From positions 636,007 through 700,006 of the forward strand of contig NZ_FMAG01000002.1 in assembly GCF_900094585.1 (NCBI RefSeq): a DNA stretch of 64,000 nt, written 5' to 3'. Shown in pieces: positions 43,274 through 47,508 of the stretch (the stretch's first letter is position 1; the number at the start of each line of letters is the position of its first letter). Under the pieces are notes generated by a model. It did no database searches. It was not told where the DNA came from and saw only the letters and a program-made list of their open reading frames with translations. This DNA comes from Martinezella multihospitum (lineage in GTDB: Bacteria; Pseudomonadota; Alphaproteobacteria; Rhizobiales; Rhizobiaceae). Both the position numbers and the translations under genes were made by a program.

Positions 43274-43678
43274 ATGATCATCGGCATAGGCAGCGATCTT
43301 ATCGACATCCGCCGGGTCGAGAAGACGATCGAACGTTTCGGCGCCCGGTTCACCGAGCGCTGCTTTACCGATATCGAGCGCGCCAAGTCCGAGCGCCGCA
43401 AGAACAAGGCGGCCTCCTACGCCAAGCGCTTTGCCGCCAAGGAAGCCTGCTCCAAGGCTTTGGGCACCGGGTTGGCCCAGGGTGTCTTCTGGCGCGACAT
43501 GGGTGTCGTCAATCTGCCAAGCGGCAAGCCGACGATGCAATTGACCGGCGGTGCCGCCGAAAGAGTGGCGGCCATGCTGCCGCCAAATCATCGCGCCGCC
43601 ATTCATTTGACCATAACGGATGATTTTCCTCTTGCTCAGGCTTTTGTGATCATCGAAGCGCTACCGATGGATGCCTGA
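43274..43678 (+). CDS. acpS: Holo-[acyl-carrier-protein] synthase
   Basis: 134 residues. [13 protein letters not shown] (metal-binding Asp) and [10 protein letters not shown] (catalytic Glu-Ala core) are diagnostic. Transfers phosphopantetheine from CoA to apo-ACP. Lies 39 nt after DUF2062 and upstream of lepB. Confidence 0.96.
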
Positions 43679-43792
43679 ATCACGACTGTATGTCGCTTTT
43701 GGCATCCGCGCCATTGCCGCGATGATGTGAAGCGAGTAGACAGTGCCTGAATGCAAGTGCGCCGGTGGGGTGCGAAAAAGGAATAAGACTGC

Positions 43793-44539
43793 GTGTCCGA
43801 GAAAGCCGTAAAACAGCAGAACGCCCTGTGGGAGAACATCAAGGTCATCGTTCAGGCTCTTGTCCTGGCCATGATCATCCGCACGTTTCTCTTTCAGCCA
43901 TTCACCATCCCGTCAGGCTCGATGATGCCGACGCTTCTTGTCGGCGATTACATCTTCGTCAACAAGTTCGCCTACGGCTATTCCAAGTATTCAATGCCGT
44001 TCTCGCCGGATCTGTTCAGCGGCCGCATCCTGGGCAGCGAGCCGAAGCGCGGCGACGTCGTGGTCTTCCGCTTCCCGCCGAATCCGGATGTCGACTACAT
44101 CAAGCGCGTGATCGGCCTGCCTGGTGATCGCATCCAGGTCAAGAACGACATCCTCTACATCAACGGTCAGGCCGTTCCGCGCGAGCCGCATGGCACCTTT
44201 TCGTCGGACTACAGCCAGGAGCCGGGCAACAACATCGCCGTCTACAGCGAGCGCTTGCCGGATACCGGCAAGGTCTATGACACGCTGGATCTCTCGCCGA
44301 ATTCCCGTGGCGACAACACTCAGGAATATGTCGTTCCGCCGGGCCATTATTTCATGATGGGCGACAATCGTGACAATTCCGACGATAGCCGTTTCGATGT
44401 CGGCTATGTCCCTGCTGAGAATCTGATCGGCCGCGCCAGCATCATCTTCTTCTCGCTGGGTCACGACACCTCGTTCCGTGAAGTCTGGAAATGGCCGACC
44501 AACATGCGTTGGGACCGTATTTTCAAGGTTGTCGAATGA
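43793..44539 (+). CDS. lepB: Signal peptidase I
   Basis: 248 residues. One N-terminal transmembrane helix (V-L-A-M-I-I-R-T-F-L-F), then P-S-G-S-M with nucleophile Ser43 and D-Y-I-K-R-V-I-G with general base Lys104; later G-D-N-R-D-N-S-D-D. Cleaves Sec and Tat signal peptides at the outer face of the inner membrane. GTG start, with AAAAAGGAA upstream. Confidence 0.97.
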   Translation: MSEKAVKQQNALWENIKVIVQALVLAMIIRTFLFQPFTIPSGSMMPTLLVGDYIFVNKFAYGYSKYSMPFSPDLFSGRILGSEPKRGDVVVFRFPPNPDVDYIKRVIGLPGDRIQVKNDILYINGQAVPREPHGTFSSDYSQEPGNNIAVYSERLPDTGKVYDTLDLSPNSRGDNTQEYVVPPGHYFMMGDNRDNSDDSRFDVGYVPAENLIGRASIIFFSLGHDTSFREVWKWPTNMRWDRIFKVVE

Positions 44540-45255
44540 CGAAGGCGCAGACGCTCTCCCAGGCGGATCGTGCCAGGCTTGAGGCCGCTATAGGCCACGA
44601 ATTCGCCGAAAAGGAGCGTCTCGACCGCGCGCTGACTCATGCCAGCGCGCGTACGCACAAGACGGGCAACTATGAACGGCTGGAATTTCTCGGCGACCGT
44701 GTACTCGGCCTGTGCATCGCAGAATTGCTCTTCAAGACCTTCGGCGCGGCGACGGAAGGCGAGCTTTCGGTACGTCTCAACCAGCTGGTGAGTGCAGAGA
44801 CCTGTGCCGAAGTCGCCGATGAGATGGAGCTGCATCTTTACATCCGCACTGGCGCCGACGTGAAGAAGCTGACGGGAAAGCGCATGCTGAACGTGCGTGC
44901 CGATGTCGTCGAAAGCCTGATTGCCGCGCTCTATCTGGATGGCGGGCTCGAAGTCGCCCGCGCGTTCATCCTGCGATTTTGGGAGCGTCGCGCCATCCGG
45001 CCGGAGGGTGCAAGGCGCGATGCCAAGACGGAATTGCAGGAATGGGCGCATGCGAAATTCGGCGTCACCCCGGTCTACAGGGTTGATGATCGCAGCGGAC
45101 CGGATCATGATCCACGCTTCACCGTGACGGTGGAAGTGAAGGGAACGACGCCCGAGACGGGAATAGAACGCTCCAAGCGCGCGGCCGAGCAGGTGGCCGC
45201 AACGCGGATCCTGGAGCGTGAAGGTGTATGGCAGCCTCAATTGACTGAGACCTAA
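44536..45255 (+). CDS. rnc: Ribonuclease III
   Basis: 239 residues. Nuclease signature E-R-L-E-F-L-G-D-R-V-L (residues ~48-58) and a C-terminal double-stranded RNA-binding domain (residues ~165-235). It overlaps the lepB stop by ATGA, so translation is coupled. Followed by two palindromes in the 125-nt gap before era, of which one is a perfect 22-bp stem. Confidence 0.97.
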   Translation: MTKAQTLSQADRARLEAAIGHEFAEKERLDRALTHASARTHKTGNYERLEFLGDRVLGLCIAELLFKTFGAATEGELSVRLNQLVSAETCAEVADEMELHLYIRTGADVKKLTGKRMLNVRADVVESLIAALYLDGGLEVARAFILRFWERRAIRPEGARRDAKTELQEWAHAKFGVTPVYRVDDRSGPDHDPRFTVTVEVKGTTPETGIERSKRAAEQVAATRILEREGVWQPQLTET

Positions 45256-45260
45256 CTGCT

Positions 45261-45310
45261 AGAGCATGATTCCGAAAAGTGTCAGGGGATTTCGGACGAC
45301 ATCATGCTCT
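45261..45310. repeat. Palindromic repeat between rnc and era, first element
   Basis: AGAGCATGAT (45261-45270) and ATCATGCTCT (45301-45310), with TCCGAAAA and TTTCGGA inside. The wording resembles common dispersed palindromes of Rhizobiales. Confidence 0.8.
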
Positions 45311-45323
45311 ACTTCTTTGAGTT

Positions 45324-45376
45324 TAGAGCGGACCCAGATTTTAGGCCGGTTCGACCTAAAATCTGGGTCCGCTCTA
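45324..45376. repeat. Perfect 22-bp inverted repeat in the rnc-era spacer
   Basis: Arms at 45324-45345 (TAGAGCGGACCCAGATTTTA and two G) and 45355-45376 are perfect complements, around the 9-nt loop CCGGTTCGA. No T run follows, so it is not a simple terminator. Either a dispersed repeat or a processing stem; it ends 4 nt before the first possible era start. Confidence 0.9.
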
Positions 45377-45380
45377 GGGA

Positions 45381-46337
45381 ATGACGGAAAAAATGAGCAA
45401 TCAGCAGGATACGCCCGCCGAAGACGGCGCGGTTGAACATATCGGCCCGACGCATTCGGGCTTCGTGGCCCTCATCGGCCCCACCAATGCCGGCAAGTCG
45501 ACGCTGGTCAACCGGCTCGTAGGCGCCAAGGTTTCGATCGTCAGCCACAAGGTGCAGACGACGCGCGCGATCGTGCGCGGCATCGCCATTCACAACAACG
45601 CGCAGATCGTCTTCATGGACACGCCCGGCATCTTCAAGCCGCGCCGCCGGCTTGATCGCGCAATGGTGACGTCTGCCTGGGGCGGAGCCAAGGATGCCGA
45701 CCTCATCATGCTGCTGATCGACAGCGAGCGCGGCTTGCGCGGCGATGCCGAGGCCATTCTGGAAGGTTTGAAGGACGTTTCCCAGCCGAAGATCCTGGTC
45801 TTGAACAAGATCGACCGCGTCCGCCGCGAGGATCTGCTGGCGCTTGCCGCCGCCGCTAACGAGAAGATCGCCTTCGAACAGACCTTCATGATCTCGGCGG
45901 AGAACGGCTCCGGCTGCGACGACGTGATGGATTATCTGGCAAAGACCTTGCCGGAAGGTCCCTGGTACTATCCCGAGGATCAGATTTCGGACTTGCCGAT
46001 GCGCCAGCTCGCCGCGGAAATCACGCGCGAAAAGCTGTTCCTGCGCCTGCACCAGGAGCTTCCCTATTCCTCGCACGTCGAGACGGAGAAGTGGGAAGAG
46101 CGCAAGGACGGCTCGGTGCGCATCGAGCAGGTGATCTATGTGGAGCGCGACAGCCAGAAGAAGATTGCGCTCGGCAAGGGTGGCGAAACGATCAAGGCGA
46201 TCTCGACTGCGTCGCGCAAGGAGCTCTCCGAAATTCTGGAGCAGCCCGTGCACCTGTTCCTCTTCATCAAGGTCCGTGAGAACTGGGGAGACGACCCCGA
46301 GCGTTTCCGGGAAATGGGGCTCGACTTCCCGCATTGA
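45381..46337 (+). CDS. era: GTPase Era
   Basis: 318 residues. G1 G-P-T-N-A-G-K-S-T, G3 D-T-P-G, G4 N-K-I-D, then a C-terminal KH domain with the G-K-G-G-E-T-I-K loop. Assembles the 30S ribosomal subunit by chaperoning 16S rRNA. Either 45381 or the ATG at 45393 (with GACGGAAAA before it) may be the start; the first has a very tight ribosome site next to the inverted repeat. Confidence 0.97.
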   Translation: MTEKMSNQQDTPAEDGAVEHIGPTHSGFVALIGPTNAGKSTLVNRLVGAKVSIVSHKVQTTRAIVRGIAIHNNAQIVFMDTPGIFKPRRRLDRAMVTSAWGGAKDADLIMLLIDSERGLRGDAEAILEGLKDVSQPKILVLNKIDRVRREDLLALAAAANEKIAFEQTFMISAENGSGCDDVMDYLAKTLPEGPWYYPEDQISDLPMRQLAAEITREKLFLRLHQELPYSSHVETEKWEERKDGSVRIEQVIYVERDSQKKIALGKGGETIKAISTASRKELSEILEQPVHLFLFIKVRENWGDDPERFREMGLDFPH

Positions 46338-46422
46338 TGGAACTTTGCTTCCCTGAGCGCTTTATATTGCAGTGGTTTATCAGGCATATGGCTCATGCCG
46401 CTGCAACTTGAGGGAGCGTTTC

Positions 46423-47178
46423 ATGGCGAAGGCAGCTGCGACTGTGCATGGACAACGCACGCCCTGCCAGCAATGTCCGCTAAGATCCCTGCCGCATTTT
46501 CGCGAATTTGACCGCGACGAGCTGAATTTCGTCAGCGGCTTCAAGAAGGGCGAACTTCTTGTCGACGCCGGTGCCACGATTTTCCTCGAAGGCGCGCATA
46601 GCGCCCACCTTTTCACCATCCTCTCGGGCTGGGGCTTCCGCTACAAGACGCTGGAGGATGGGCGCCGCCAGATCCTGAATTATGTGATGCCTGGCGACCT
46701 CATCGGATTGCAGGGTTCGATCATGGGCGAGATGCAACACTCGACAGAGGCGCTTTCGCCGATATCGCTTTGCGTTTTCGAGCGCACGGAATTGATGACG
46801 CTCTACAATTCCCACCCTTCGCTGGCCTATGATCTGACCTGGATCGCCTCGCGTGAGGAGCGGATACTGGATGAACATCTTCTAAGCATAGGCCGCCGCT
46901 CTGCACTCGAGCGCGCAGCCTATCTGATCGCGTATCTGCATCAGCGCGCCCGTGCTCTCCGCTTGTTCAACGGCAGCAAGACCATCCCGATCCGGCAGCA
47001 GCACGTCGCCGACACGCTTGGTCTTTCGGTGGTCCATACCAACAAAACATTGAAAAAGTTGGCGGCGCGGAAGCTGCTGTTCTGGCATGAGCGAGGCTGT
47101 GAGGTTTTGGACGGCGAAGGGCTTGCTGAGCTTGCCGGTTGGGACGGCCTTGATTCGGTCAGGCGCCCCTTCATTTGA
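46423..47178 (+). CDS. Crp/Fnr family transcriptional regulator with partial FNR cysteine set
   Basis: 251 residues. Cyclic-nucleotide-binding-like domain (residues ~25-135), long helix, and Crp-type HTH (V-A-D-T-L-G-L-S-V-V-H-T-N-K-T-L). Cys15, Cys18 (C-Q-Q-C) and Cys117 reproduce the spacing of E. coli FNR Cys20, Cys23, Cys122, but the position of FNR Cys29 is Pro24, so one cluster ligand is missing. It may sense oxygen weakly, bind the cluster by another ligand, or use another signal. TGAGGGAGC before the ATG. Confidence 0.9.
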   Translation: MAKAAATVHGQRTPCQQCPLRSLPHFREFDRDELNFVSGFKKGELLVDAGATIFLEGAHSAHLFTILSGWGFRYKTLEDGRRQILNYVMPGDLIGLQGSIMGEMQHSTEALSPISLCVFERTELMTLYNSHPSLAYDLTWIASREERILDEHLLSIGRRSALERAAYLIAYLHQRARALRLFNGSKTIPIRQQHVADTLGLSVVHTNKTLKKLAARKLLFWHERGCEVLDGEGLAELAGWDGLDSVRRPFI

Positions 47179-47508
47179 GGGCAGCTCTTTGCGCAAACAA
47201 CATGTCTTTTTTAAATGCTGACAACAACTGTATCAGCATAGATTATTGTCATCGTCACTTTTCCACCAGTTTCACCTTTTACTAACCCCGGCGGCAAAAG
47301 CGATTGGAGCATGGTGACGAGCCCATAGTACCGCAGTGCAAAAAGTGCGAAGCGGATTGGAGGCGAAGTCATGTCACAAGAGACTGAGCCAAAACGGATG
47401 GGCAAAACCATCCATTCAAGACGGGCCGATGATTGGCGCCGGAGGGATAGATGCGGGACTTTTTACGGGGTGCGCCAACTGGCGCGTACGTGCAAGGATG
47501 GCGCTGAT
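47179..47508. other. Intergenic region between the Crp/Fnr and response-regulator genes
   Basis: 330 nt. A second possible start for the next gene at 47371 has a strong GGAGG and would add 46 basic residues; whether that region is coding is unclear. A small hairpin GGATGG/CCATCC lies at 47396-47413. No terminator or repeat recognised. Confidence 0.4.

Follow-up and report, generated by a model that had tools for sequence, protein, structure and literature searches.

The closest known relatives of the repeat analyzed here are RIME/CIR-type repeats. RIME elements are said to have been introduced by Osteras et al. in 1995, and CIR repeats were reportedly introduced by Chen and Shapiro in 2003. 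RIME1 has a two-palindrome form. In Escherichia coli, the leader of the rnc transcript mediates autoregulation of the gene. PMC6121014 reports a lepB-rnc-era operon as the location of the S. meliloti RNase III gene. RIME (Rhizobium-specific intergenic mosaic elements), as characterized by way of PMC2573895, are rhizobial, intergenic, dispersed, and mosaic, as is the repeat considered here. CIR (CcrM-associated intergenic repeats) are described in PMC2229807 as about 110 bp long and made of two inverted-repeat arms and a linker, a description to which the 117-bp repeat of the window can be likened. Bru-RS1 and Bru-RS2 of Brucella, described in PMC2266754, are alphaproteobacterial palindromic repeats tied to an element that inserts at TA/YTAR and may be likened to the window repeat by the same kind of description.

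The window, meaning the whole 64-kb stretch of DNA that was analyzed, comes from a genome of 7.3 Mb, and Rhizobium species hold the closest Era matches. It contains a lepB-rnc-era cluster in which the genes flanking the repeat were identified with Pfam models as those for RNase III and Era, with signal peptidase upstream (Table 1). In the spacer that follows the rnc stop at 45255, the sequence-only reading had noticed a perfect 22-bp inverted repeat with a 9-nt loop, and this description is exact: the arms at 45324-45345 and 45355-45376 pair perfectly. With the loop taken as 3 nt, the same hairpin reads as 25 bp at 96%. It is the longest perfect hairpin of the window, where the runners-up have 12 bp (loops of 3 to 20 nt), and about 1.6e-7 perfect hairpins with arms of at least 22 bp would be expected in 64 kb from base composition. 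A second palindrome, previously placed at 45261-45310, is real as well; it is imperfect and extends from 45260 to 45311. The two palindromes are parts of a single element of 117 bp that spans 45260-45376 between rnc and era. The predicted RNA fold of 45256-45395 has a free energy of -66.6 kcal/mol (z = -8.4), and none of 200 shuffled sequences was as stable. A search of 43500-47500 with Rfam gave nothing above the gathering score, the only sub-threshold match being to a microRNA (24.8 of 50 bits), and Rfam gave no match in loci L003, L055, and L144.

Table 1. Features of the lepB-rnc-era region and of the repeat in its spacer
Feature	Coordinates	Strand	Evidence
lepB, signal peptidase I	43793..44539	+	Pfam PF10502
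rnc, RNase III; 4-nt overlap with the lepB stop	44536..45255	+	Pfam PF14622, PF00636, PF00035
Whole repeat: module A, 12-nt linker, and module B; ends TAGAGC...GCTCTA	45260..45376	+	Same layout at 19 of 22 own-genome sites
Left TA, presumed target-site duplication	45260..45261	.	Single TA at empty sites
Module A, imperfect palindrome TAGAGCATGAT...ATCATGCTCTA	45260..45311	+	RNA fold; own-genome copies
Linker joining the modules, CTTCTTTGATTC-like in most family copies listed	45312..45323	+	
Module B, 22-bp perfect hairpin; arms homogenized in this strain only	45324..45376	+	Arms asymmetric in orthologues L138-L142
Right TA, presumed target-site duplication	45375..45376	.	Single TA at empty sites
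ACGGA, probable ribosome-binding site of era; lies outside module B	45384..45388	+	Sequence; GGA there in most spacers listed
era, from the start codon conserved in relatives	45393..46337	+	Pfam PF01926, PF07650; all 80 named loci have an ATG aligned here

The spacer insert is one copy of a dispersed repeat. In its own genome the element is present at 22 sites, 19 of them with both modules, one with module A and a degenerate module B, and two with module B only; two weaker A-like matches (L047 and L048) were left out of this count. Across the genus, the repeat consensus was matched in at least 134 of 148 genomes, with a best E value of 1e-18 or lower in at least 104, and at least 58 of 199 genomes in a family sample had a match, mostly to module A alone in other genera among the matches listed. 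These counts for genus and family are minimum values, because few candidates were scored per genome (five in the genus searches and four in the family search). Copies were collected from 111 submitted loci, three of which (L151, L162, and L164) yielded none. The resulting 108 copies, a part of the listed matches that was chosen from those scoring best against a query including the window copy, came from 66 genus sites, and 18 of these sites are represented by orthologues in two or more genomes. An intergenic position was observed for some sites. Plasmid records with a match numbered 450, including 360 from Rhizobium and 77 from Sinorhizobium, the latter at 71 to 74% identity among the matches listed.

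Several individual copies deserve mention. Two genomes of genus g73, outside the window's own genus, have full copies with both modules at 91 to 95% identity (G219 and G300), nearer than the copies in other listed genera, which may reflect either recent spread or close kinship. Module A alone occurs as close pairs in other genera (G292:C43:384-434 and 446-496; G296:C12:224918-224964 and 224978-225022), which suggests that the modules may also spread or duplicate separately. One own-genome copy (L008; C18, about 110437-110540) is followed directly by an ATG, with a second ATG 17 nt on, and may again lie in a short gene spacer.

At rnc-era, the element was found at one of the 80 named Rhizobiaceae loci (L053, R. 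hainanense). In 75 of the 80, rnc ends no more than 61 bases from the Era match or overlaps it, and these spacers are therefore too short to hold the element; longer spacers at L126 and L128 do not have the repeat. A match spanning the whole insert was found in at least 6 of the 148 genus genomes, the window strain included, and the insert is restricted to a small clade. L053 and L139 are identical over rnc and era and are probably one species seen twice. The sequence-only reading had offered, as its alternative to a regulatory role, a dispersed repeat that landed at rnc-era, and had proposed asking whether the stem is kept there or scattered in relatives. The single named locus, together with the 22 own-genome sites, supports that alternative: the repeat is scattered, although at least five other genus genomes do carry the insert between rnc and era. 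In a tree of rnc and era, a locus without the insert (L054) was nested among the carriers, with an ultrafast bootstrap of 99 for the group that excludes carriers L141 and L142. This placement implies later loss of the insert, probably a single loss in the L054 lineage; the tree rests on one gene pair, for which recombination is possible. Carriage by six genus genomes shows that the insert can at least be tolerated; a weak effect, or weak selection, is possible.

The same rnc-era place holds a different TA-GAGC-bounded insert in R. miluonense (L055) and in one R. lusitanum (L057). It occupies L055:2325-2500, with the ends TA-GAGC...GCTC-TA, and has a diverged relative at L057:2326-2500. The relatives between these two in the tree are empty, which implies either two separate insertions at this place or repeated loss of the insert.

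The empty rnc-era site reads CTGCCTAGAAACG in L056 and L059. The flanks at this locus show drift: the left one is shorter by one C, and the right one has GGGA versus GAAA. For two other own-genome copies, on contigs C18 and C12, the two flanks were joined, the 148 genus genomes were searched with them, and the fetched junctions were read. The empty sites were gap-free or nearly so. At the C18 site, 17 of the 30 loci read had a single TA in a YTAR context, for example, GAA(T/C)TAAGGACGG; at the C12 site, the same was true of 12 of 24 loci that were empty, for example, CCT(C/T)TA(G/A)TACC; 6 of the 30 loci for the C12 site gave the left flank alone and were excluded from the latter count. The junction had another dinucleotide in 13 of the 30 and 12 of the 24 loci, respectively. 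Of eight short spacers compared at rnc-era, four were likewise without TA (L058, L060, L066, and L071). The TA-less junctions read as drift in mostly more distant relatives, yet two close ones, L261 and L270, are among them. Because a single TA is found at two empty sites, and a CTAG at rnc-era, the junctions suggest that insertion takes place at YTAR and duplicates the TA. Duplication of TA at the rnc-era site itself would follow the same pattern; the window copy has TA at both ends, and 76 of the 108 copies start with TA. In the table of a 2007 review (PMC2229807), this type of repeat is marked "?" for target duplication; the empty sites suggest that its target TA is duplicated. Titles and abstract openings in the literature, where duplication was not queried by name, gave no IS630 link or target duplication for this repeat type.

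The perfection of the stem is private to this strain. The five other genus carriers at rnc-era have unequal B arms, of a GGATTC type on the 5' side versus a TCATCC type on the 3' side, and the longest perfect arms in these orthologous inserts are 6 to 9 bp, compared with 22 bp in the window copy. The exact perfect variant was found in 1 of the 148 genus genomes, at the rnc-era site only. Perfect stems as long or longer were found at unrelated sites (L206, L170, and L038). Symmetric B arms were found in 10 of the 108 copies, 6 of which have the usual 5' arm twice and 4 the usual 3' arm twice, and about 97 of the 107 readable copies are asymmetric, L138 and L140 having been called by eye and L046, with its degenerate module B, being unreadable. 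Three orthologous sites combine a single symmetric copy with asymmetric ones: rnc-era, L206 versus L019 and L219, and L211 versus L198 and L217. Template switching at inverted repeats has been described for RNA hairpins (PMC8794818). It is favored here because homogenization runs in both directions, as that mechanism would produce, and most likely the window B arms were made identical by replication template switching, that is, by quasi-palindrome correction. The 5' arm of the window copy also changed from TT to CC. At least two steps are therefore required, the substitution having come before the arm copying or along with it. In other copies the outer bases of module B co-vary on both arms (GATACGG/CCGGATC in L157, GATGCGG/CCGCATC in L166, and GAACAGG/CCTGTTC in L212), which may reflect either compensation or arm copying.

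The repeat has the termini TA-GAGC...GCTC-TA, as do IS630-family elements of the same genus. Thirty IS630 loci were searched for their ends, one of them in the window's own genome and 29 taken from the best genus matches. A TA-flanked end pair was found in 17 of these, in every case TA-GAGC...GCTC-TA, and the other 13 gave none above the thresholds. When a profile of 23 IS630 ends was applied, the scores of the module B ends were reached by 0.5 to 9% of window positions and those of the module A ends by 36 to 87%. The link between IS630 and the repeat is thus partial, because past GAGC the ends of module B are modestly IS630-like and those of module A have no similarity. The other repeat, in L055, has a right end that is strongly IS630-like. 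No autonomous parent element was found among the 30 loci in which IS630 ends were sought or in the PF13340 search of the own genome. Identical IS630-family copies of about 1,042 bp, with ends TA-GAGC...GCTC-TA and a transposase apparently in two overlapping frames, terminate four contigs of the own genome (L133-L136; C6, C9, C12, and C18) and therefore probably break the assembly. One PF01797 protein, which bears on a REP/RAYT origin, is present in the same genome.

From these termini, an IS630-type driver of the repeat appears likely. It is possible, but rather unlikely, that the mover is instead a transposase of another type that duplicates TA at YTAR, such as an IS711-like member of the IS5 family, the family to which IS711 belongs. 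IS711 duplicates the TA of YTAR and, as described in PMC2266754, is associated with the Bru-RS palindromic repeats. However, PF13340, the sole IS5-type model applied, had no match in the own genome, which does contain IS630-family copies with TA-GAGC ends. For the hairpin itself, the location of a 22-bp perfect stem directly after rnc invites the proposal that it is a regulatory RNase III site, at which a cut separates rnc from era and feeds back on the enzyme's own message. Repeat hairpins of the Correia/NEMIS type are reportedly cleaved by RNase III in transcripts (PMC10969869, PMC2229807), and by analogy a cut separating rnc from era at the window stem is possible. However, 79 of the 80 named loci have no insert, the five orthologous stems are broken, a relative nested among the carriers lacks the insert, and stems of equal or greater length stand at unrelated sites. 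Judged by its occurrence in relatives, the stem is not a conserved regulatory switch; a selected device is disfavored because the stem is unconserved, the orthologous stems are broken, and the nested relative is without the insert. We therefore regard a regulatory RNase III site as improbable.

It had also been suggested that the stem masks the era start, which would lower era translation. The stem does end 4 nt before the first possible era ATG, at 45381, as the sequence-only reading had noted, but relatives conserve the start codon at 45393, downstream of the stem, and the 45381 position has ACG instead of ATG in relatives such as L055-L060, with L054 as an exception. An in-frame ATG lies 10 to 18 codons ahead of the aligned Era core in all 80 named loci, with 15 codons in the window. 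The ATG at 45393 is unpaired in the predicted RNA fold, and the GGAA at 45386-45389 is weakly paired with the linker, this 4-bp pairing being the sole predicted involvement of the GGA of ACGGA. Because the conserved start and ACGGA lie outside module B and GGA is weakly paired, masking of era is very unlikely, and, with era keeping its conserved start beyond the stem, the effect of the element on rnc-era expression is probably small. The stable stem after the rnc stop might alternatively be an intrinsic terminator or a stabilizer of the rnc 3' end. The sequence after 45376 is GGGAATGACGG, which has no T-run, a terminator scan was empty there, and termination would sever era from its operon, so that we give this proposal hardly any credence.

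The favored explanation, in which we have high confidence, is that a copy of a RIME/CIR-type, MITE-like repeat was inserted at a YTAR between rnc and era with duplication of TA and that its module B arms were homogenized later, in this strain alone. A non-autonomous two-palindrome repeat would have inserted at the YTAR in the lineage ancestral to a small clade of Rhizobium, duplicating its TA target, and an IS630-type transposase would have moved it. Later, template switching would have made the module B arms identical in this strain alone. A bolder proposal, which we consider quite doubtful, is that rhizobial repeats of this kind are IS630-driven YTAR MITEs whose stems are perfected in place by template switching, here building an RNase III site in the rnc message. 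If it were true, the new RNase III site would link the level of the enzyme to the separation of rnc from era. With insertion and later homogenization as the preferred explanation, selection is not needed to explain why an RNase III operon contains so conspicuous a perfect hairpin, a mobile repeat and arm homogenization being enough. The element is an ordinary dispersed repeat at a place that catches attention, and its interest lies in the empty sites that bear on TA duplication, in the partial link to IS630, and in the homogenization replicates. Orthologous copies with versus without homogenized arms are natural replicates for the origin of perfect hairpins and for effects on the expression of neighboring genes.

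Comparison with the described systems places the repeat most closely beside RIME and CIR. It is a dispersed palindromic repeat of rhizobia, as RIME are, with 22 sites in its own genome and 108 copies at 66 genus sites, and it matches several S. meliloti plasmid records over its full length at about 74% identity, which is suggestive, the likeness to RIME being one of description. CIR have 5'-TA-3' termini (PMC2229807), as does the window copy. They are also described there as having GANTC at or near the terminal loop; here GANTC is present in 104 of the 108 copies, in the 5' arm of module B in 94 of the 108, and the window copy is without it in module B. RUP of Streptococcus pneumoniae, described together with IS630-Spn1 in PMC2229807, is a 107-bp non-autonomous element with a TA target and IS630-like ends, as here, but its ends are reportedly highly similar to those of its own IS, whereas in the present repeat the similarity is modest for module B and nil beyond GAGC for module A. 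Correia/NEMIS repeats of Neisseria are likewise TA-bounded hairpin repeats that occur in transcripts, with RNase III processing reported (PMC10969869, PMC2229807); they belong to a different organism and are likened to the window repeat by description. Among these systems, the window element is a further repeat of the RIME/CIR kind.
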